DNA of 64,000 nt from Egicoccus halophilus (GTDB lineage Bacteria; Actinomycetota; Nitriliruptoria; Nitriliruptorales; Nitriliruptoraceae), in assembly GCF_004300825.1 (NCBI RefSeq), contig NZ_CP036250.1, forward strand, positions 744,001 through 808,000, given 5' to 3'. The notes beneath the pieces are model-generated. The model was not told the DNA's origin, searched no databases, and was given only the letters and a program-made list of their open reading frames with translations. The position numbers and the translations under genes are program-made. Positions 35,233-46,083 of the stretch are shown here, one piece after another. The first letter of the stretch is position 1. Each line of letters begins with the position of its first letter.

Positions 35233-35787
35233 ATGGAGTGGCTGATCGTCCTGGCCGTCGTGGTGGTGCTGGTCGTCGCCGTGGTCGCCATGTACAACCG
35301 GTTGGTGCGCGCCCGGGTGCGGGTCGACGAGGCCTGGGCCCAGATCGACACGCAGCTGCAGCGGCGACACGACCTGATCCCCAACCTGGTGGAGACGGTC
35401 AAGGGCTACGCCGCTCACGAGCGGGAGACCTTCGAGGAGGTCACCGCCGCGCGGTCCCGCGCGCTGCAGGTCGCGCAGCCGGGTGAGCTCGCCGAGGCGG
35501 AGAACGAGCTGACGCAGGCGCTGGGCCGCCTGCTGGCCATCAGCGAGAACTACCCCCAGTTGCGTGCCGACGCGAACTTCCGGCAGCTGCAGGAGGAGCT
35601 CGCGCACACCGAGAACCTGGTCGCCGGCGCGCGCGGTCACTACAACGCCAGCGTGCGGACCTACGACGAGACCCGGCAGGTGTTCCCGACCTCGCTGATC
35701 GCCGGCATGTTCAACTTCGAGGGACGCGAGTACTTCGAGGTCGAGACCGTCGAGGTCCGCGCGGTGCCCGACGTCTCGTTCGAGTAG
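35233..35787 (+). CDS. LemA family membrane protein
   Basis: The 184-residue protein starts at MEWLIVLAVVVVLVVAVVAM, a single N-terminal transmembrane helix, followed by the conserved LemA helical bundle: RVRVDEAWAQIDTQLQRRHDLIPNLVETVKGY and YNASVRTYDETRQVFPTSLIAGMFNF. LemA proteins are often paired with HtpX-type proteases, and this one overlaps the M48 protease start by one base (TAGTG). The molecular function of LemA is unknown. Confidence 0.95.
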   Translation: MEWLIVLAVVVVLVVAVVAMYNRLVRARVRVDEAWAQIDTQLQRRHDLIPNLVETVKGYAAHERETFEEVTAARSRALQVAQPGELAEAENELTQALGRLLAISENYPQLRADANFRQLQEELAHTENLVAGARGHYNASVRTYDETRQVFPTSLIAGMFNFEGREYFEVETVEVRAVPDVSFE

Positions 35788-36977
35788 TGGCCGACGGCGG
35801 AGGCCCTGACCGGGACGGCGCACGACGACCCGAGCCCGCCGTCTACGACGAGCTGCAGCGTGCCAACCGGCGGGCGACCCGGTTGCTGCTCGGCGCAACC
35901 GTGTTCCTCGCCCTGGTGCTGGTCTGGATCCTGGTCGGCTGGTTCGCGCCGCAGGCGGCCCTGGACCCGGTGACGGCTGTGCCCATCACCGCCGGCGGCG
36001 CCCTGCTCGGGGTCGGCGGGACCTACCTCGCCTACCGCGGGGGGCCGGCCATCGCCCTGCGGGCCGCGAAGGCGCGGCCCGCGCCGCGCGAGCAGTACCC
36101 GCAACTGCACAACGTGTTCGACGAGGTGTGCGTGTCGGCGGGGATCGCGAACACGCGACCCAAGCTGTACGTGGTCGACGACCCGGCCCCCAACGCGTTC
36201 GCGACCGGTCTGCGCCTCGAGGACAGCCACGTCGCGGTCACCACCGGCCTGGTCGAGCGCCTGCCCCGCTACGAGTTGCGGGCCGTGTTGGCCCACGAGG
36301 TCGCGCACATCGTCAACGACGACATCCGCGCGGTCACGGTCGCGGTCGCCACCGCCGGTCTGGTCGCCCTGCTGGCCGACGTGCTGGTCCGGGCGATGTG
36401 GTTCGGTGGCCGCGGCGGGCGTGGCGGCAACCGCGGCGGCAACAGTGCCGGCGCCGCCCAGGTGGTCTTCCTGGTCCTCGGGCTGCTCGCCGTCGTGCTC
36501 GCGCCGATCGCGGCCCAACTGATCCGCTTCGCCGTCTCGCGGCAGCGCGAGTACCTCGCCGACGCCACCGCGGCGGACCTGCTGCGTGACCCGCAGTCGA
36601 TGGTCAACGCGCTGCGGCGTCTCGACGCGGACCGGACCGAGATCCGGCAGTTCGAGGTCGCGACCGCCCACCTGTGGTTCGAGGAGCCCAACGACACCAA
36701 GGGCAAGGACCGTGGCGCGAAGATGGCGCGGCGCTTCGCCACGCACCCGTCGATCGGCGAGCGCATCGAGCGGCTCGCCCGGCTCAACGCCGGCACGGTG
36801 CGCCTCGACGACCCGCTGCCGCCACCGCCGCAGTCGCCGGGTCCGTCCGCGCCACCACCGTCGTCGGGCCCACGGGGCGGCTCCGACGCCCTCGACCCCC
36901 TGCGCTTCCCGGGCACCGGTGGCCGGCATCCCGGCTCCCCGGGGGCCTCGGGACCGCCGCCACCCCCACGCTCGTGA
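35787..36977 (+). CDS. M48 family (HtpX-like) membrane metalloprotease
   Basis: This 396-residue protein starts at GTG overlapping lemA. It has two N-terminal transmembrane helices, the zinc-binding motif HEVAH (His170, Glu171, His174) within LRAVLAHEVAHIVNDDI, a further hydrophobic pair around residues 190-255 separated by a GGRGGRGGNRGG linker, and the third zinc-ligand region SRQREYLADATAADLL. A Pro/Ser/Gly-rich tail of ~70 residues ends the protein. HtpX-like enzymes degrade misfolded membrane proteins. The LemA-M48 pairing is common. Confidence 0.93.
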   Translation: MADGGGPDRDGARRPEPAVYDELQRANRRATRLLLGATVFLALVLVWILVGWFAPQAALDPVTAVPITAGGALLGVGGTYLAYRGGPAIALRAAKARPAPREQYPQLHNVFDEVCVSAGIANTRPKLYVVDDPAPNAFATGLRLEDSHVAVTTGLVERLPRYELRAVLAHEVAHIVNDDIRAVTVAVATAGLVALLADVLVRAMWFGGRGGRGGNRGGNSAGAAQVVFLVLGLLAVVLAPIAAQLIRFAVSRQREYLADATAADLLRDPQSMVNALRRLDADRTEIRQFEVATAHLWFEEPNDTKGKDRGAKMARRFATHPSIGERIERLARLNAGTVRLDDPLPPPPQSPGPSAPPPSSGPRGGSDALDPLRFPGTGGRHPGSPGASGPPPPPRS

Positions 36978-37076: not shown

Positions 37077-38372
37077 TCAGGATCGGGGCACGCGCAGGGC
37101 GGCCAACGAGCGGCTGAGTCCGGCGAACGTGCGCGGGTCCCACCCGGTCAGCTCGGCCCAGCGGTCGAGCCGGTAGGCGACGGTGTTGGCATGCAGGGAC
37201 AGCAAGCGGCCGGCCTGGCTCACGCTGAAGCCGGCGTCGGCGAACGCCCGCACGGCCTCGGCCAGGTGCGGGTGCCGCTGAGCGGCCCCGGCACCGTCGG
37301 CCAGCAGCGGCTCCAGGCGCTCGCGGGCGCCGGTCAGCGTCGCCCACAGCCAGGCGTCCTCGAACCGGCCGGTGCTCGACGCCGCCGTGACGGCGAGGGT
37401 CAGCTCGGCGTCCGTGAGCGAGGCGCGGGCGCCCCGCAGCCCGCGGCGCGTGGCGCCCAGCGCGACGGCTGCGGACGGGTAGGTGGAGCGGGCAGCGGCC
37501 GCGACCGCCGACTGCTCCGCGTCCTGCGACAGGCAGACGAGCTGGGTGCCGCGGGCGACCACCGCATGGCGGCCGGCACCGTCGTCCAGCGCGTGCTGCA
37601 GGTCGACGACGTCGAGGTCGACGTCGTCCACCCGGAGCACCGACACCAGGAACCCGCCGGCGGGGTCGAAGCCGAGGGAGGCGGCCAACCGCGGCACCTC
37701 GTCGCTGTCGAGATCCCCGCCGACGAGCAGTTCGACCAGGCGTTGTCGGGCACCGACCGTGCGGGCCTCCAGCGAGCGGACCGTGGACGCGTGCGACTCG
37801 GCGAGCGCGTCGGTGACCTCGTGGACCCACTGCCACACCAGGGTCGCGGCGGTGAGCAGCTGCGTCGCCGTCTCCGGCTGGTCGGCAGGCACGGCGTCGA
37901 CCAGCGCCAGCCACAGTTCGCGATAGCCGATGTGGTACGCCTTGATGACCGCGTCGACGGGCATGCCCTGGAGCGCCCGGCGCGACCCGAGCTCGCCGCG
38001 CACGGCCAGCTCGTCGTCACGCGGGGCCCGGTGTTCCGCCAGGCCGGCCAGGGTGTTCTGGATGTTGCGCAGCACGGAGTGGCGCAGGTCGCTGGTGGGG
38101 ACCAGCCCACGGCGGTAGGTCGGGATCTCGGCCTGGATGTCGTCGGTGACCCGGTCGGCGAGCGTGTCGAGCCGGCGCTCGACGCTGGCCGCCAGTTGGG
38201 CGATGCCCTCCCAGCCGTCGGGAATCGCGCGCCGTGACGACGCCGCGGCCGGCGGCACGCGCAGGTCGGCCGGCAGCAGGTCCCCGGTCGGCAACGCGGC
38301 GTCCTCGTCCGTCCGCGAGCGCGGCGCCTCCGCGTCGGTCCCCGTCGGCGGTCGGCCGGTCTGCTGGCTCAT
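37077..38372 (-). CDS. PucR-family transcriptional regulator
   Basis: The 431-residue protein (start MSQQTGRPP) has an N-terminal sensor-like region of ~150 residues, a central GGDEF-like/CdaR module (about 215-330), and the C-terminal PucR helix-turn-helix (AVRAFADAGFSVSQAGRLLSLHANTVAYRLDRWAELTG). PucR/CdaR proteins typically activate catabolic or transport genes in response to a metabolite. It is divergent from the Liv/acyl-CoA-ligase operon. Palindromes with a shared TCGTG-N5-CACGA core lie before both its own start and the operon, so it is the obvious candidate regulator (inference). Confidence 0.9.
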   Translation of the reverse strand: MSQQTGRPPTGTDAEAPRSRTDEDAALPTGDLLPADLRVPPAAASSRRAIPDGWEGIAQLAASVERRLDTLADRVTDDIQAEIPTYRRGLVPTSDLRHSVLRNIQNTLAGLAEHRAPRDDELAVRGELGSRRALQGMPVDAVIKAYHIGYRELWLALVDAVPADQPETATQLLTAATLVWQWVHEVTDALAESHASTVRSLEARTVGARQRLVELLVGGDLDSDEVPRLAASLGFDPAGGFLVSVLRVDDVDLDVVDLQHALDDGAGRHAVVARGTQLVCLSQDAEQSAVAAAARSTYPSAAVALGATRRGLRGARASLTDAELTLAVTAASSTGRFEDAWLWATLTGARERLEPLLADGAGAAQRHPHLAEAVRAFADAGFSVSQAGRLLSLHANTVAYRLDRWAELTGWDPRTFAGLSRSLAALRVPRS

Positions 38373-38393
38373 CGTGTGCTCCCGCCCGACACG

Positions 38394-38412
38394 CCTCGTG
38401 AATAGCACGAGG
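38394..38412. promoter_or_regulatory. Operator candidate 1, proximal to the PucR gene
   Basis: A perfect inverted repeat, CCTCGTG-AATAG-CACGAGG, lies 22 bases before the regulator start. Its core TCGTG-N5-CACGA is identical to that of the palindrome at 38536-38556. Confidence 0.6.
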
Positions 38413-38492
38413 TCTCCCAACCCGTGGTCGGTGATCCTACGAGTTGCCCCGTTGGTGCGTCCATCCCGGATTCGCCCGAACGCGCGAAGTCG

Positions 38493-38521
38493 TTGACACC
38501 CGAGTCGCCGCCCGGTACCAA
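38493..38521 (+). promoter_or_regulatory. Sigma-70-type promoter of the Liv operon
   Basis: TTGACA (38493-38498), a 17-base spacer and TACCAA (38516-38521) form the best -35/-10 pair seen in the window. Transcription would begin near 38528, just before operator candidate 2. Confidence 0.65.
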
Positions 38522-38535
38522 TCCGCACCGGGAGT

Positions 38536-38556
38536 GTTTCGTGGGAACCACGAAAC
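38536..38556. promoter_or_regulatory. Operator candidate 2, start of the Liv operon
   Basis: GTTTCGTGG-GAA-CCACGAAAC is a perfect 9-bp inverted repeat placed 14-35 bases downstream of the -10 box, where binding would block transcription. It shares the core TCGTG-N5-CACGA with the site at 38394. A second, imperfect palindrome centred on TCCGTACGGA spans 38563-38582. Confidence 0.6.
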
Positions 38557-38602
38557 GACGGGCCGGATCCGTACGGAACCGGGCCGTGGCTGGGAGGCCG
38601 CG

Positions 38603-39430
38603 GTGCTCGTCGTCGAGTGGTCGCACACGCTGGGAGAGCTCGTGCTGACCGTGCAGAATCTCGAGGTGGTCTACGAGGACGTCATCCTCGTGCTCAAGGG
38701 CGTGAGCATCGATGTCCCGAAGGGATCGATCGTGGCGCTGCTCGGGGCCAACGGCGCCGGCAAGACCACGGTGCTGCGGGCGATCACGGGGCTGCTCGAC
38801 ATCCACCGGGGCGAGGTGACCAAGGGCTCCATCACCTTCGACGGTGAGGCGATCCACCGGCTCGACGCGCCGAGCACGGTGGCCGCCGGCATCGGGCAGG
38901 TCATGGAGGGCCGCCGCGCGTTCGCCGAGTTCACGGTCGAGGAGAACCTGCGCATCGGCGCCCACACGGCCGACCGCGGCTCGGTGAACGCGGGCCTGGA
39001 CCGGGTCTTCACCCTGTTCCCGCGGCTCGCGGAGCGTCGCCGGCAGATGGCCGGCTACCTCTCGGGCGGCGAGCAGCAGATGCTGGTCATCGGTCGTGCG
39101 CTCATGGCGGACCCGAAGCTGCTGCTGCTCGACGAACCGTCCCTGGGGCTCGCACCGTTGATCGTGCAGCAGATCCGTGACCTCATCGTGGACATCAACC
39201 GTCAGGGAACGTCGGTCCTGCTCGTCGAGCAGAACGCCAACATGGCCCTGTCGATCGCCAGTCACGGCTACATCATGGAGACCGGCAAGGTCGTGATGGA
39301 CAAGCCGGCGGCCGTGCTGCGCGAGGACGAGGACGTACGCGAGTTCTATCTCGGCCGCCACGGCGGCGAGGAGGCGACCTCCTTCCGGGACGTCAAGCAC
39401 TACAAGCGACGGAAGCGCTGGTTGTCCTGA
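38603..39430 (+). CDS. livF: Liv-type ABC transporter ATPase (LivF-like)
   Basis: This ATPase has Walker A (GANGAGKTT), the signature LSGGEQQML, Walker B (LLLLDEPSLGLAPL) and the LivF-typical MEGRRAFAEFTVEENL. GTG 38603 follows GGGAGG at 5 bases and gives 275 residues. GTG 38642 (GGGAGAG upstream) gives a start closer to the usual family start, LTVQNLEVVYEDV. The C-terminal tail, TSFRDVKHYKRRKRW, is an extension rich in basic residues. It is first in the operon, downstream of the palindromic operator. Confidence 0.92.
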   Translation: MLVVEWSHTLGELVLTVQNLEVVYEDVILVLKGVSIDVPKGSIVALLGANGAGKTTVLRAITGLLDIHRGEVTKGSITFDGEAIHRLDAPSTVAAGIGQVMEGRRAFAEFTVEENLRIGAHTADRGSVNAGLDRVFTLFPRLAERRRQMAGYLSGGEQQMLVIGRALMADPKLLLLDEPSLGLAPLIVQQIRDLIVDINRQGTSVLLVEQNANMALSIASHGYIMETGKVVMDKPAAVLREDEDVREFYLGRHGGEEATSFRDVKHYKRRKRWLS

Positions 39431-39472: not shown

Positions 39473-40366
39473 GTGGCACAGATCCGACCGCTGTCGGAGG
39501 CCCTCACGGGGACCTCGGTGGACGTTCCCGCGGGGCAACCGGTCCTCCAGGTGGACGACCTCGTCCTGCGCTTCGGTGGCACGACGGCCGTCGGGGGGGT
39601 CAGCTTCGACGTGCAGCGCGGCGAGTTGTTCGCGGTCATCGGCCCCAACGGGGCGGGCAAGACGTCGATCTTCAACTGTCTCTCCGGCGTCTACCGGCCG
39701 CAGGAGGGGCGGGTGCGCTTCCTCGGTGAGGACCTGCTCGGGCTCAAGCCCGACGTCGTCGCCGACCGCGGTGTCGCCCGGATGTTCCAGAACATCGAGC
39801 TCTTCGACAACCTCACGGTGCTCGACAACCTCATGCTCGGCCGCCACCAGCACGTCGGGTACGGGATGCTGGCCGGCATGCTGTGGGTGGGGCGGGCCAA
39901 GCGCGCCGAGCTCGACAACCGGCGCATCGTCGAGGACATCATCGACTTCCTCGAGATCGAGGCGTTCCGCAAGCTGCCGGTGGGGATGTTGCCCTACGGC
40001 GTCAAGAAGCGGGTCGAACTCGGACGCGCGCTGGCGATGGAACCGAAGCTGCTGCTGCTCGACGAGCCGGTCGCCGGCATGAACGTCGAGGAGACCGAGG
40101 ACATGGCGCGGTTCATCCTCGACATCCGCACCGAGCTCGAACTGGCCATGATCATGGTCGAGCACGACATGGGCCTGGTCATGGACCTCGCCGACCGCAT
40201 CCTGGTCGTCGACTTCGGCAAGCCGATCGCACTCGGCACCCCCGACGTGGTGTCCAACGATCCCGAGGTGATCCGGGCCTACCTCGGCGAGGGCGACGAC
40301 GGTCCCGACCTGCAGACGGAGGCGGCCACCGCAGCCGCCGTGACGACCGAGGAGGCCGGACGATGA
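39473..40366 (+). CDS. livG: Liv-type ABC transporter ATPase (LivG-like)
   Basis: The 297-residue protein starts at GTG after GGGAGAG. It has Walker A (GPNGAGKTS), Walker B (LLLLDEPVAGMN) and the LivG-type end (MVEHDMGLVMDLADRILVVDFGKPIALGTP). In place of the usual LSYG signature it reads LPYGVKKRVELGRAL. The Ala/Thr-rich tail overlaps the acyl-CoA ligase start by 4 bp. It pairs with LivF to power the LivHM permease. Confidence 0.93.
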   Translation: MAQIRPLSEALTGTSVDVPAGQPVLQVDDLVLRFGGTTAVGGVSFDVQRGELFAVIGPNGAGKTSIFNCLSGVYRPQEGRVRFLGEDLLGLKPDVVADRGVARMFQNIELFDNLTVLDNLMLGRHQHVGYGMLAGMLWVGRAKRAELDNRRIVEDIIDFLEIEAFRKLPVGMLPYGVKKRVELGRALAMEPKLLLLDEPVAGMNVEETEDMARFILDIRTELELAMIMVEHDMGLVMDLADRILVVDFGKPIALGTPDVVSNDPEVIRAYLGEGDDGPDLQTEAATAAAVTTEEAGR

Positions 40367-42342
40367 GCGCGACCCTGGAACAGACCGCGTCCCGGGCCAG
40401 CGGCCCCCGCGGGATCCGGACCGTCCCGGCCCGCGTCCGTGAGCATGCCGAACGCGACCCGCAGCGGGTCTGCATGCGCGAGAAGCGCTACGGCATCTGG
40501 CAGGACATCACCTGGGCCGACTACTGGGAGCACGTCAGCGTCGTCGCCCACGCCCTGTGCGCCCTGGGCGTGCGGGCGGGTGACCGCGTGGCCGTCCACT
40601 CCGAGAACCGGCCCGAATGGCTCTACGGCGACGTCGGTGCGGTCGCGATCCGGGCCATCACGATGGGGCTGTACCCGACCAATCCCGCCACGGAGGTCGC
40701 CTACCTGCTGCGCGACTCGGGCAGTCGGGTGCTGATCGCCGAGGACCAGGAGCAGGTCGACAAGGCACTCGAGGTCGAGGCGCAGTGTCCCGACCTCGAA
40801 CACATCGTCTACCTCGAGCCCCGCGGCGTGCGCGAGTACGACCATCCCAAGCTGCTGGCGTGGGACGACTTCTTCGAGCAGGGGCGTGCCCACCGCGAAC
40901 AGCATCCGGACCTGCTCGAGCGCTGCGCCACCGAGGCCACCGAGGACGACGTCGTCACCCTGATCTACACCTCCGGGACGACCGGACCACCCAAGGGCGC
41001 GATGCTGACGGTGGCCAACGTCGAGTTCGCCATCGAGACGCTGGTGTCCGGTGGCGGGTTCTACAACCCGCCGGCGAGCCCGGATGACGTCATCCTCAGC
41101 TACCTGCCGTTGTGCCACGTCGCCGAGCGGGCCGCCACCGAGTGGGTCAACGCCGAGGCCGGGGTCACGGTCCACTTCGCCGAGTCGATCGAGACGGTGA
41201 CCGCGAACCTCAAGGAGGTGCAGCCGACGCTGTTCTTCGCGGTCCCCCGGATCTGGGAGAAGCTGCACGCCGGCATCCACATCAAGATGAACGCCGCCTC
41301 ACCGCTCAAGCGGGCCGTGTTCGGGTTCTGGATGCGCATCGCCAACCAGATCGGTGACGAACTGGTGCGCAACGACGGCCGCCACACCCCCCGGACCCGG
41401 CTGCTGTACGCGCTCGGCTACCCGTTCGTGTTCCGTGCCCTGCGCGATCGACTCGGACTGCGCAAGGTGCGTTCCGCGGGGTCGGGCGCCGCGCCGATCG
41501 CGCCGGAGGTGCTGAAGTTCTTCTTCGGCATCGGCGTGATCATCTACGAGATCTACGGCATGACCGAGAACGCCGCGGTCGGCACGGTCAACCGGCCCGG
41601 ACGCGTCAAGCTCGGCACCGTCGGCGAGCCGCAGCCCGGCATCGAACTGCGCATCGACGAGCAGACGGGCGAGATCCTCACCCGGCACCCGGGCGTGTTC
41701 GCCGGCTACTGGAACCTGCCGGACAAGACCGCCGAGACGATCGACGAGGACGGGTGGCTGCACACCGGCGACGTCGGGGAGTGGGTCGACGGCAGCCACG
41801 TCAAGATCGTCGACCGGATCAAGGACATCATCATCACCGCGGGTGGCAAGAACATCTCGCCCTCGGAAATCGAGAACTCGCTCAAGACCTCGCCGTTCGT
41901 CAAGGAGGCGGTGGTCATCGGCGACAAGCGGCCGTACCTGACCGCGCTGATCGGCATCGAGCTCGACACGGTCGGTGACTGGGCGCAGCGCCGGAAGCTG
42001 CCCTACACCACCTATCGGGACCTGTCGGAGAAGCGCGAGGTCCTCGAGCTGGTGCAGCGGGTCGTCGCGGAGACCAACGACAAGTTCGCGCGGGTGGAGA
42101 ACATCCGCAAGTTCCGCGTGATCCCCAAGGAACTCGACCACGAGGACGGCGAGCTCACGGCGACGCAGAAGGTCAAGCGCGCCTCGCTGCACGAGATGTT
42201 CGGCTACCTCGTCGACGACATGTACGCCAACCGCACCGAGCATGCCGGCGGCGACCTCGTCGACGTGCACACGCCGGCGGGTGACGAGCAGACCGAGGGT
42301 GCCGGCGCCGGCGCCGGACGCGGACAGGGGGTGGTCGCGTAG
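40363..42342 (+). CDS. AMP-forming long-chain acyl-CoA ligase-like enzyme
   Basis: This 659-residue adenylating enzyme starts at the ATGA overlap with livG. It has the AMP-binding signature LIYTSGTTGPPKGAML, the core YEIYGMTENAA, the hinge region HTGDVGEWVDG...VDRIKDIIITAGGKN, and a C-terminus that fits the long-chain (FAA1/bubblegum-like) branch. It would activate a carboxylate to its CoA ester at the cytoplasmic face. Sitting between Liv ATPase and permease genes, it suggests that the transported substrate is a carboxylic acid captured as a CoA thioester rather than an amino acid (inference). Confidence 0.92.
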   Translation: MSATLEQTASRASGPRGIRTVPARVREHAERDPQRVCMREKRYGIWQDITWADYWEHVSVVAHALCALGVRAGDRVAVHSENRPEWLYGDVGAVAIRAITMGLYPTNPATEVAYLLRDSGSRVLIAEDQEQVDKALEVEAQCPDLEHIVYLEPRGVREYDHPKLLAWDDFFEQGRAHREQHPDLLERCATEATEDDVVTLIYTSGTTGPPKGAMLTVANVEFAIETLVSGGGFYNPPASPDDVILSYLPLCHVAERAATEWVNAEAGVTVHFAESIETVTANLKEVQPTLFFAVPRIWEKLHAGIHIKMNAASPLKRAVFGFWMRIANQIGDELVRNDGRHTPRTRLLYALGYPFVFRALRDRLGLRKVRSAGSGAAPIAPEVLKFFFGIGVIIYEIYGMTENAAVGTVNRPGRVKLGTVGEPQPGIELRIDEQTGEILTRHPGVFAGYWNLPDKTAETIDEDGWLHTGDVGEWVDGSHVKIVDRIKDIIITAGGKNISPSEIENSLKTSPFVKEAVVIGDKRPYLTALIGIELDTVGDWAQRRKLPYTTYRDLSEKREVLELVQRVVAETNDKFARVENIRKFRVIPKELDHEDGELTATQKVKRASLHEMFGYLVDDMYANRTEHAGGDLVDVHTPAGDEQTEGAGAGAGRGQGVVA

Positions 42343-43241
42343 TGGAGGACCTGCTGACGATCCTCGTACGGGGTGTCGCCCAGGGCAGCGTGTACGCGCT
42401 GCTGGCGGCCGGTTTCGTGGTGATCTACCGCGCGACCGACGTGGTGAACTTCGCGCAACCGGCGCTGATGGTGCTCGGTGCCTATTTCACCGCCCTGTTC
42501 GTACGCACCTACGAGATCCCGTTCCCGCTCGCGATCCTCGGCTCGATCCTGGTCGTCGGCATGATCGGGGCCGCCTGTGAGCGCATCGCGCTGCGGCCCA
42601 TGGTCGGCGAGCCGCCGTTCAGCGCCGCGATGGTCACCGTCGGTGTCTTCCTGGTGCTCACGATCGTGGCCAACCGACTCATCGGCTCCAACGTGCTCAC
42701 CGTCGGTGACCCGTGGGGGCTGGACACGGCCGTGCTGGCCGGCGGGGTGCGCATGCGGGTCGCCGACGGCTGGCGCATCGCCCTGACCGCCGGGGCGTTC
42801 GCCGGGGTCGGACTGTTCCTCGCCCGCTCGCGGGTGGGGCTGGCGATGCGCGCCACCTCGCTGGACCAGGAGGTGGCCCTGGCGCAGGGCGTGAACGTCG
42901 GCCGCATGTTCGGACTGTCGTGGGCGATGGCCGGTGGCCTGGCCGGGTTGGCCGGGATGATGGTGGGCAGCGGTGGGCAGGGCGTGGACAACACCACGGC
43001 GTTCGTCGCGCTCAAGGCCCTGCCGGTGATCATCCTCGGCGGCCTGGACTCGCTCAAGGGGGCCTACATCGGCGGGCTGGTCATCGGCGTGGCGGAGGCC
43101 TTCACGCGGGCGAACTCGGCGGCGCTGACCGGCTACGTGGGTGCCAACGTCGACGTGGTCGTGCCCTACGTGATCATGATCCTGGTGCTGATGGTGCGGC
43201 CCTACGGCCTGTTCGGCACCCCGGAGGTCCAGCGCGTATGA
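42342..43241 (+). CDS. livH: Liv-type ABC permease (LivH-like)
   Basis: The 299-residue integral membrane protein starts at GTG overlapping the ligase stop by one base. It has about eight hydrophobic segments and the LivH motifs QGSVYALLAAGFVVIYRATDVVNFAQ near the N-terminus and ALPVIILGGLDSLKGAYIGGL near the end. It forms half of the permease channel with LivM. A 27-codon frame bridges it to livM. Confidence 0.94.
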   Translation: MEDLLTILVRGVAQGSVYALLAAGFVVIYRATDVVNFAQPALMVLGAYFTALFVRTYEIPFPLAILGSILVVGMIGAACERIALRPMVGEPPFSAAMVTVGVFLVLTIVANRLIGSNVLTVGDPWGLDTAVLAGGVRMRVADGWRIALTAGAFAGVGLFLARSRVGLAMRATSLDQEVALAQGVNVGRMFGLSWAMAGGLAGLAGMMVGSGGQGVDNTTAFVALKALPVIILGGLDSLKGAYIGGLVIGVAEAFTRANSAALTGYVGANVDVVVPYVIMILVLMVRPYGLFGTPEVQRV

Positions 43242-43321
43242 GCAGCGACCACCGCGGACACCGGCGCGGCACGCGTGGCGGGGGCACGGCCGCCGTCGCG
43301 GTCGGACAGGAGCGGGCATGA
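43238..43321 (+). CDS. 27-aa bridging micro-ORF between livH and livM
   Basis: ATG 43238 overlaps the livH stop (ATGA), and the TGA at 43319 overlaps the livM ATG (ATGA). The 27-residue product (MSSDHRGHRRGTRGGGTAAV...) is basic and low-complexity with no recognisable fold. Its role, if translated, is more likely translational coupling across the gap than a protein function. The double overlap could also be chance. Confidence 0.3.
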   Translation: MSSDHRGHRRGTRGGGTAAVAVGQERA

Positions 43322-44481
43322 CCGAGCGTCGCACGTCACCGATCGGCAACCGGCGGGCCGTGACCCTGCGGGGGCGACCCGAGCTCTACACCGACTACGC
43401 GACCGACCAGGCGATGCTCAACACGCCGGCCAAGCGGGCCTGGACGGCGTTGCTGGTCGTCGGCCTGCTCGCGGCTCCGTTCTTCCTCGGCCGGGACCTG
43501 ACCAGCCTGCTCACCACCGTGTTCATCTTCGGCATCGGGGCGATCGGGCTCAACCTCGTCACCGGCTACGCCGGCCAGGTGTCGCTCGGGCACGCGTTCT
43601 TCGTCGGACTCGGGGCCTACACCGCGGCGTTCGTCGGCAACGAACCGACCGGATCGTTGCGGGGCCTGGGCCTCGAGCTGTGGGTCTGGCTGCCGCTGGC
43701 CGGGCTCGTGCCGGCCGTCGTCGGCTTCCTGGTCGCGCCGATCGCGGCCCGGGTGCGCGGGCTCTACCTCGCGATCCTGACCCTCGGCCTGGTGTTCATC
43801 GGCGACCACGTCTTCAAGGAGGCCCGCACCTTCACCGGTGGGCCCGGCGTGGGACGTCGCGCCGCCGCCCCGATCGTCGGGGGGCTGGACCTCAGCCGGC
43901 GACAGGAGTTCTTCGGCGTCACCTTCGAGGGCGCCGACCTGTTCTACCTGCTGTGCTTCGTGCTGCTGTTGGTCGCGGCGGTGCTGGCCCGCAACCTGGC
44001 CCGCTCGAAGGCCGGGCGCGCCTTCGCCGCCGTCCGTGACCGCGACATCGCGGCCGAGGTCATGGGCGTGCCGCTGACGCGGACCAAGGTGCTCGCGTTC
44101 ACCATCTCCTCGTTCTACGCCGGTGTCTGCGGCGGTCTGCTCGCGATCACCTACGGCGTGATCGAACCCGCCAGCTTCGACCTGCTGCTCTCGGTCGACT
44201 TCCTCGCGATGATCCTGATCGGCGGCGTGGCGACCATCAGCGGCTCGCTGGCCGGAGCGGCGTTCGTGGTGCTCCTGCCACGCCTGGTGCAGACCTACGC
44301 CCACTACGTCCCGGGCATCAGCCGCGGATCGACCGGAGACGGGCTGCTGACCGTGTTCCAGTTCGAGGGGCTGCTGTTCGGCGCGCTGATCGTGGCCTTC
44401 ATCGTCCTCGAGCCGCGGGGGCTGTACGGCCTGTGGCTGCGGGTCCGCAACTACTGGAAGGCCTGGCCCTTCTCGTACTGA
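43318..44481 (+). CDS. livM: Liv-type ABC permease (LivM-like)
   Basis: This 387-residue membrane protein has the LivM motifs GIGAIGLNLVTGYAGQVSLGHAFFVGLGAYTAA and AFAAVRDRDIAAEVMGVPLTRTKVLAFTIS, plus LIGGVATISGSLAGAAFVVLLP. It has about nine transmembrane helices and a ~50-residue cytoplasmic N-terminus. It completes the permease with LivH. The substrate-binding lipoprotein gene follows after 234 bp with its own likely promoter. Confidence 0.94.
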   Translation: MTERRTSPIGNRRAVTLRGRPELYTDYATDQAMLNTPAKRAWTALLVVGLLAAPFFLGRDLTSLLTTVFIFGIGAIGLNLVTGYAGQVSLGHAFFVGLGAYTAAFVGNEPTGSLRGLGLELWVWLPLAGLVPAVVGFLVAPIAARVRGLYLAILTLGLVFIGDHVFKEARTFTGGPGVGRRAAAPIVGGLDLSRRQEFFGVTFEGADLFYLLCFVLLLVAAVLARNLARSKAGRAFAAVRDRDIAAEVMGVPLTRTKVLAFTISSFYAGVCGGLLAITYGVIEPASFDLLLSVDFLAMILIGGVATISGSLAGAAFVVLLPRLVQTYAHYVPGISRGSTGDGLLTVFQFEGLLFGALIVAFIVLEPRGLYGLWLRVRNYWKAWPFSY

Positions 44482-44715: not shown

Positions 44716-46083
44716 ATGCGGGAGACAAGGCGACTGCGGCGCACGGTGGCCGCACTGGGTGTGGTCGCGCTGGTGGCGACGGCATGTGGCGGAGGGGACG
44801 AGGGCGCCGCTCCGGCCGGCGAGGACGACGCGCCGGCGGCCGGTGAGGGCGACGACGCCGCCGGTGGGGAGATCCAGACCGACATCGGCGTCACCGACGA
44901 GCCCTGTCCGGAGGAGGTCAACCCGGACAACGGCTGCATCTACCTCGGCACGCTCTCGGACCTGACCGTCGGCCCGTTCGCGGCGCTGGGCGTGCAGATC
45001 GTCGAGGGCCAGGAGGCGTTCTGGCAGCGCGTCAACGAGCAGGGCGGCATCGGCGGCTACGACGTCAACGTCACCGAGTACACCCGCGACAACGAGTACA
45101 ACCCCCAGACCCAGTCCCAGCTCTACCGCGAGATCGAGCCCGACGTGCTCGCGCTCGCGCAGACGCTGGGCACGCCGCCGACCGAGGCGATCCTGCCCGA
45201 CATGGACGAGGACAACGTGGTCGGCGTCCCGGCGTCCTGGTGGTCGGGCTGGGACCACGAGTCCGCCGACTACGGCCTGATCCTCAACTCCGGGTACTCG
45301 TACTGCATCGAGTCCCAGATCGCGCTCGACTGGTCCGACGAGAACGAGGGCGAGATCACGAGCGTGATGGCGGTCGGGTACCCCGGCGACTACGGCGGTG
45401 ACGCGGCGGCCGGTGCCGAGGCCTGGGCCGAGGCCAACGACGTCGAGTACCTCGGCTTCGTCGAGACCGCCCCCAACGCGGTGGTCGGCTCGCAGGACGC
45501 CGCCATCGGCCAGGTCGTGGGCAGTGGCGCGGACCGCGTCATCGTCGCGGTCGGTCCGGCGGAGACCGCCGAGCTCGTCGGTGGGGCGATGGCCAACGGC
45601 TTCGAAGGGCGCTTCATCGGCTCCGTGCCGACCTGGAACCCGGCACTGATGGACTCCCCGGCCGCGCCCGCGCTCGAGGCGGTCTTCACGCACGTCGGTC
45701 CGTGGGAGCCCTTCACCGGGGACTCCGAGGCGCACCAGGCCATGCAGGAGCACCTGGGCGAGGGCAACCTGCCGACCAACGACGGCTGGACCTTCGGTTG
45801 GGTCTGGTCCTACCCCATGAAGTCGCTGCTCGAGCAGGCGGCGGCCAACGGCGACCTGACCCGCGAAGGGGTGCGCAACGCCATCGACGGGTTGACCATC
45901 GACTACGAGGGTGCGCTGCCCGAGCGCACGCTGACCGGTGACGCCAACGAGTCGGCCGTGCGCACGGCCGTCTTCGGCCAGCCCGACGCCGACGAGCCGC
46001 TGCGCCTGCGCACGATCGCGACCGGCGTGACGGGTCCGACGGCGGACGAGTACGACTACAGCTCCCCCTGCTCGGGCACCTAG
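44716..46083 (+). CDS. ABC transporter substrate-binding lipoprotein (Liv family)
   Basis: The 455-residue protein has a lipoprotein signal (VALVATAC, Cys24), an acidic Gly/Ala/Asp linker, and a periplasmic-binding-protein type I fold: YLGTLSDLTVGPFAALG, FWQRVNEQGGIGGYDV, VVGVPASWWSGWDHESA and GRFIGSVPTWNPALM. It delivers substrate to LivHM. The sequence between the two lobes (WWSGW) is aromatic-rich, which fits a ligand other than a plain branched-chain amino acid (inference). A strong terminator follows. Confidence 0.93.
   Translation: MRETRRLRRTVAALGVVALVATACGGGDEGAAPAGEDDAPAAGEGDDAAGGEIQTDIGVTDEPCPEEVNPDNGCIYLGTLSDLTVGPFAALGVQIVEGQEAFWQRVNEQGGIGGYDVNVTEYTRDNEYNPQTQSQLYREIEPDVLALAQTLGTPPTEAILPDMDEDNVVGVPASWWSGWDHESADYGLILNSGYSYCIESQIALDWSDENEGEITSVMAVGYPGDYGGDAAAGAEAWAEANDVEYLGFVETAPNAVVGSQDAAIGQVVGSGADRVIVAVGPAETAELVGGAMANGFEGRFIGSVPTWNPALMDSPAAPALEAVFTHVGPWEPFTGDSEAHQAMQEHLGEGNLPTNDGWTFGWVWSYPMKSLLEQAAANGDLTREGVRNAIDGLTIDYEGALPERTLTGDANESAVRTAVFGQPDADEPLRLRTIATGVTGPTADEYDYSSPCSGT

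Follow-up and report, generated by a model that had tools for sequence, protein, structure and literature searches.

The intergenic region between a pucR-family regulator gene and a divergent transporter and acyl-CoA ligase operon in Egicoccus halophilus contains two matching palindromes that are probably operators of the adjacent PucR/MabR-type protein, through which it would repress both the operon and pucR itself. Within the window (the whole stretch of DNA analyzed, 64,000 nucleotides), this region spans 269 bp (38373–38641), from the pucR ATG at 38372 on the minus strand to the predicted operon start, a GTG at 38642. The pucR-side operator, CCTCGTG-AATAG-CACGAGG (38394–38412), has 7-bp arms around a 5-nt spacer and lies 22–40 bp 5' of the pucR ATG. 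The operon-side operator, GTTTCGTGG-GAA-CCACGAAAC (38536–38556), has 9-bp arms around a 3-nt spacer, and its family consensus is YTCGTGGGAACCACGAR. An earlier sequence-only reading had described these palindromes as sharing a TCGTG-N5-CACGA core with centers 143 bp apart; both were located at exactly the positions it gave, with cores at 38396–38410 and 38539–38553 and centers at 38403 and 38546. The window contains just two copies of the core, and this intergenic region holds both. An imperfect 30-bp palindrome (ACGGGCCGGATCCGTA/TACGGAACCGGGCCGT; 38558–38587) is also present immediately 3' of the operon-side site, and none was seen when relatives were inspected by eye at the equivalent place.

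The regulator (37077–38372, minus strand) is a 431-aa protein comprising a globin-like N-terminal domain, a GGDEF-like domain, and a PucR helix-turn-helix (HTH). Its PucR family membership is evident from the HTH (PF13556, HTH_30), which scored 54.7 bits against a cut-off of 27, and GGDEF_2 (PF17853), located before the HTH, scored 36.2 bits against a cut-off of 24.5. A GGDEF-like domain is present in about half of the PucR family. The AF2 model of the regulator (mean pLDDT, 87.6) matched the GGDEF-like and HTH parts of the MabR C-terminal fragment 9f80 (Z 19.2, 226 residues, rmsd 3.6; profile E 1.2e-17) as well as PDB 3onq (Z 19.4). Residues ~40–192 matched globin-like folds, the best being 3pmd (Z 14.6, 150 residues), a match given moderate weight because this class is helical. 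Structural neighbors of the MabR N-terminal domain include phycobiliproteins, RsbR, and 3pmd (PMC11617747), and the N-terminal domain of this regulator has the same neighbors. As modeled, the protein is MabR-like in its globin-like sensor, GGDEF-like domain, and PucR HTH. Its G019 ortholog (L110 12375–13763) carries a low-complexity Ala/Pro/Asp-rich repeat insertion in the GGDEF-like region.

Both sites lie close to promoters. The operon promoter TTGACA-N17-TACCAA (38494–38522, plus strand; hexamers at 38494–38499 and 38517–38522), noted in the sequence-only reading, is visible by eye but was missed by a strict consensus scanner because its second hexamer lacks the final T. The start point predicted from it, ~38529, places the operon-side site at about +7 to +27, in agreement with the earlier placement of this site just past the transcription start. 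A TTGAC[AT]-N17/18-TANN[AC]A promoter is found in all 15 loci that carry pucR; in each, the operon-side site begins 15–20 nt past the −10 hexamer and is downstream of the predicted start point. For pucR, the putative −10 is TAGGAT (38434–38439, minus strand), inside a conserved CTCGTAGSATC block that precedes the pucR-side site in most orthologous regions. The spacing between the two sites ranges from 137 to 303 bp across loci without helical phase. Fixed looping between them was therefore rejected, and two independent operators are the likelier arrangement.

Conservation, the check put forward in the sequence-only reading, was examined in the window genome and 14 relatives, comprising seven genera of one family. 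Each of the 15 loci has both sites 5' of its pucR and liv orthologs. The PucR orthologs of the relatives share about 53–76% identity with the regulator, and the named records among their genomes are Nitriliruptoraceae metagenome-assembled genomes. An ortholog of the operon lies across the intergenic region from pucR in every case, beginning with the ligase gene in G008 and G020 and spread over two contigs in G001. Eight of the 15 loci have TTCGTGGGAACCACGAA as the operon-side site, and the others have close variants, among them CTCGTCGGAACCACGAG in g4, CTCGTTAGAATCACGAG in G011, TTCGTGACAACCACGAA in G007, and TTCGTGGGAACCACGAG in G019 and G022; the pucR-side site, although present at every locus, is looser (CYYGTG-N5-CACGAG on the window strand). 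When ten representatives were anchored, information peaked at the operon-side site (1.53 bits/base versus 0.40 upstream and 0.22 downstream) and reached 1.16 bits/base at the pucR-side site versus 0.30–0.48 in the flanks. With leave-one-genus-out matrices, the true operon-side site was the best match in every one of the 15 regions (14–33 bits), and none of 300 shuffles per region attained its score. The G020 operon (L107 11026–18250) has been reordered as ligase, permeases, binding protein, and ATPases; it retains the same promoter-operator block, which indicates that this block goes with the regulator and not with livF. In G022 (L100 12391–14583), ~2.2 kb of inserted genes part pucR from the operators, both palindromes remain at the operon, and the pucR −10 looks decayed.

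The sites also follow the presence of the regulator. The operon-side site was absent (maximum, 2.8 bits with the leave-one-genus-out matrices) from 19 homologous operons that lack pucR, of which nine come from the same family as the pucR-bearing loci. The same site thus stands at both the regulator and operon promoters and is conserved together with the regulator (15/15 versus 0/19), a contrast to which no formal probability is attached because the relatives share kinship, so that these are not 34 independent events, and which includes several incomplete drafts. This distribution makes it almost certain, as judged from sequence, that the sites form an ordinary type of local on/off switch. The 82% complete draft G024, in which a search for pucR detected none, has a TTGACA-N17-TAACAA promoter at the same place together with GTCGTGGCGGGATCCACGCA, which reads as a version of the operon-side site that carries 3 inserted bp and has altered ends. 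This locus (L118 8969–9180) is an apparent natural loss of pucR in which the promoter has been retained and the palindrome broken by 3 bp. Near-tandem copies of a ~36-bp repeat follow the broken palindrome in the G024 leader. A survey of 396 genomes from the phylum placed the operator pattern in pucR-liv loci alone, the sole exception being a match in a distant 9-Mb genome that is probably due to chance. At E 1e-40, PucR orthologs were restricted to the family plus one homolog of 34% identity, and a scan of genome contigs returned just four loci, all from the same group. PucR paralogs in G042, G048, G055, and G044 and the second copy in G008 (32–38% identity) were also considered; they do not adjoin the operon, and no such site was found within 600 bp upstream of them.

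Chance is scarcely credible as the origin of the palindromes. A lone palindrome with arms of at least 7 bp is unremarkable, being present in 13% of Markov shuffles of the intergenic region (two in 2.9%). It is the matching pair and its conservation that are remarkable: any two N5-spaced palindromes that share a 5-bp half-site arose in just 0.12% of shuffles, and retention of the sites over seven genera already refutes a chance origin. The 3.98-Mb genome contains 28 exact TCGTG-N5-CACGA cores, giving an expectation of 0.0019 in the intergenic region and a Poisson estimate of ~2e-6 for two or more. The 26 cores elsewhere overlap long open frames with mostly coding-like GC3 and appear to lie within coding sequence. 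No further site within two mismatches of TTCGTGGGAACCACGAA was found in the genome except one TTCGTGGGCACCAAGAA, which several relatives share and which probably lies in coding sequence; with the other cores also looking coding, a wider regulon was rejected. It is also quite unlikely that the sites are bound by a regulator from another locus, with pucR merely a neighbor. The genome does encode three other HTH_30 proteins above the cut-off, and the assignment of binding to PucR is drawn from sequence, but these other genes have no site core inside 10 kb, the operator is restricted to this locus, and the sites follow this particular pucR. A role for the operon-side palindrome as a hairpin in the mRNA leader, controlling stability or translation rather than acting as a DNA operator, is more improbable still. 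The palindrome would be transcribed close to the 5' end, the predicted leader fold is a 9-bp stem with a GAA loop, and the GAA center is nearly invariant. However, g4 (C-C), G011 (T-C), and G007 (A-C) each have a mismatched stem pair, a second copy lies on the pucR side, a search of Rfam gave no match, and the presence of the palindrome tracks pucR and not the operon.

Operation of the sites as operators leaves one feature of the operon-side center in excess. The A residues at positions 0 and +1 are asymmetric and invariant in 15 of 15 loci, which exceeds the need of a simple dimer operator and counts against the explanation favored here. In addition, the right half-site CACGA is invariant in operon-side sites and the left half-site varies, and the GGAACC center is near-invariant there and free in the pucR-side sites. 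There is a slim possibility that the operator doubles, via this GGAACC center, as a directional signal in the initial transcribed region or leader RNA, in which case a single 17-bp element would be recognized as DNA by the regulator and would also be read in the transcript. More weight is given to the possibility that the same PucR-DNA pair acts in the opposite sense, with PucR activating the operon and the pucR-side site or a looped pair recruiting polymerase, although we consider this rather doubtful. Most characterized PucR-family regulators are activators (PMC7652997), MabR itself is now described as one (PMC5541348), and G022 retains a good pucR-side palindrome at the operon though pucR is ~2.2 kb away. 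Against activation, the operon-side site is past the predicted start point at every pucR-bearing locus, the −35 is consensus-like, G024 retains the promoter without a detected pucR, and the spacing between sites varies without phase.

Repression through two independent sites is favored by the position of the sites past both start points, the consensus-like −35, the free spacing, and the promoter retained in G024. The use of the pair for autoregulation and operon control, as the sequence-only reading had put it, is supported by conservation, and binding by PucR is its predicted element. We consider it very likely that the adjacent PucR binds both sites and lean toward repression rather than activation, a preference that rests on site position and the consensus-like promoter because most precedents in the family are activators. 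In this mechanism, a PucR dimer would set its two recognition helices into the TCGTG/CACGA half-sites, whose centers are separated by 10 bp (one helical turn); the recognition helices of MabR are 34 Å apart, likewise one helical turn, and fit adjacent major grooves (PMC11617747). PucR bound just past the operon start point would block the operon promoter, and PucR bound between the pucR promoter and ATG would repress its own gene. The operon would bring in a long-chain fatty acid and convert it to acyl-CoA, and either compound, at the globin-like domain, may alter DNA binding and relieve repression. We give even chances to a fatty acid or acyl-CoA as the signal, which would fit both the operon and the MabR precedent.

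The operon genes, all on the plus strand, encode a LivF-type ATPase (38642–39430; orthologs align from residue 1 of the predicted GTG start), a LivG-type ATPase (39473–40366), a FadD11-like fatty acyl-CoA ligase (40366–42342; PF00501/PF23562), LivH-type (42342–43241) and LivM-type (43318–44481) permeases, and a substrate-binding lipoprotein nearest a fatty-acid-binding protein (44716–46083). FadD11 was the best NCBIfam match of the ligase, at 415.7 bits, under the cut-off of 950. The NCBIfam equivalogs for LivF, LivG, LivH, and LivM all scored below cut-off (e.g., LivF, 235.9 versus 441; LivG, 274.5 versus 362), which counts weakly against a branched-chain amino acid transporter, these models being strict. 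The binding protein is of the 4n03 type: PDB 4n03, from Thermomonospora curvata and titled fatty acid ABC transporter substrate-binding protein, was its best match both in sequence (phmmer E 2e-32) and in the fold of its model (Z 49.3, 381 residues, 27% identity), with lower fold matches to 3eaf (ligand unstated; Z 41.1) and valine-bound 3lkb (Z 39.2). Based on this binding protein and the FadD11-like ligase, the operon more probably serves long-chain fatty acid uptake and activation than branched-chain amino acid uptake. In the earlier label of a Liv/acyl-CoA ligase operon, "Liv" is probably a misnomer.

MabR (Rv2242) of Mycobacterium tuberculosis and FasR of Streptomyces coelicolor have the same architecture of globin-like sensor, GGDEF-like domain, and PucR HTH, and there too the regulator gene adjoins a lipid operon with palindromic repeats at the promoter; DNA binding by MabR is modulated by acyl-CoAs (PMC5541348). 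They differ from the regulator described here in sharing only ~22–23% identity with it by structural alignment, in controlling fasII biosynthesis, described as activation, rather than a predicted fatty acid uptake and activation operon, and in the placement of the site, which here is downstream of the start point. GabR of Corynebacterium glutamicum, also of the PucR type, is a local regulator divergent from its operon, and the intergenic region between them contains two 21-bp inverted repeats to which it binds (PMC7652997). However, GabR lacks the GGDEF-like domain and is an activator, and its sites are grouped upstream of the −35, whereas here there is one site per promoter. PucR, PutR, and AdeR of Bacillus subtilis have the HTH family in common with this regulator and act on different substrates; the PutR and AdeR sites are inverted repeats of 17 and 24 bp (PMC7652997), and the B. 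subtilis PucR site, unlike those described here, is not palindromic. The locus thus probably adds another local, autoregulating PucR-family switch to a known type, and provides in YTCGTGGGAACCACGAR an exact candidate operator for a MabR-like PucR regulator in Nitriliruptoraceae-related bacteria. The globin-GGDEF-HTH combination has been said to be confined to Actinomycetia (PMC11617747); this regulator stands outside that class and is tied to probable fatty acid import and activation, making the locus a simple system for asking if such regulators sense acyl-CoA.

On the other side of pucR, a convergent gene (35787–36977, plus strand) is a conserved neighbor in several relatives. A 422-aa open reading frame on the minus strand (35661–36929), used as a locus marker, is probably an antisense shadow of this gene, and the relative of the gene in L118 resembles an M48-type (HExxH) membrane peptidase.
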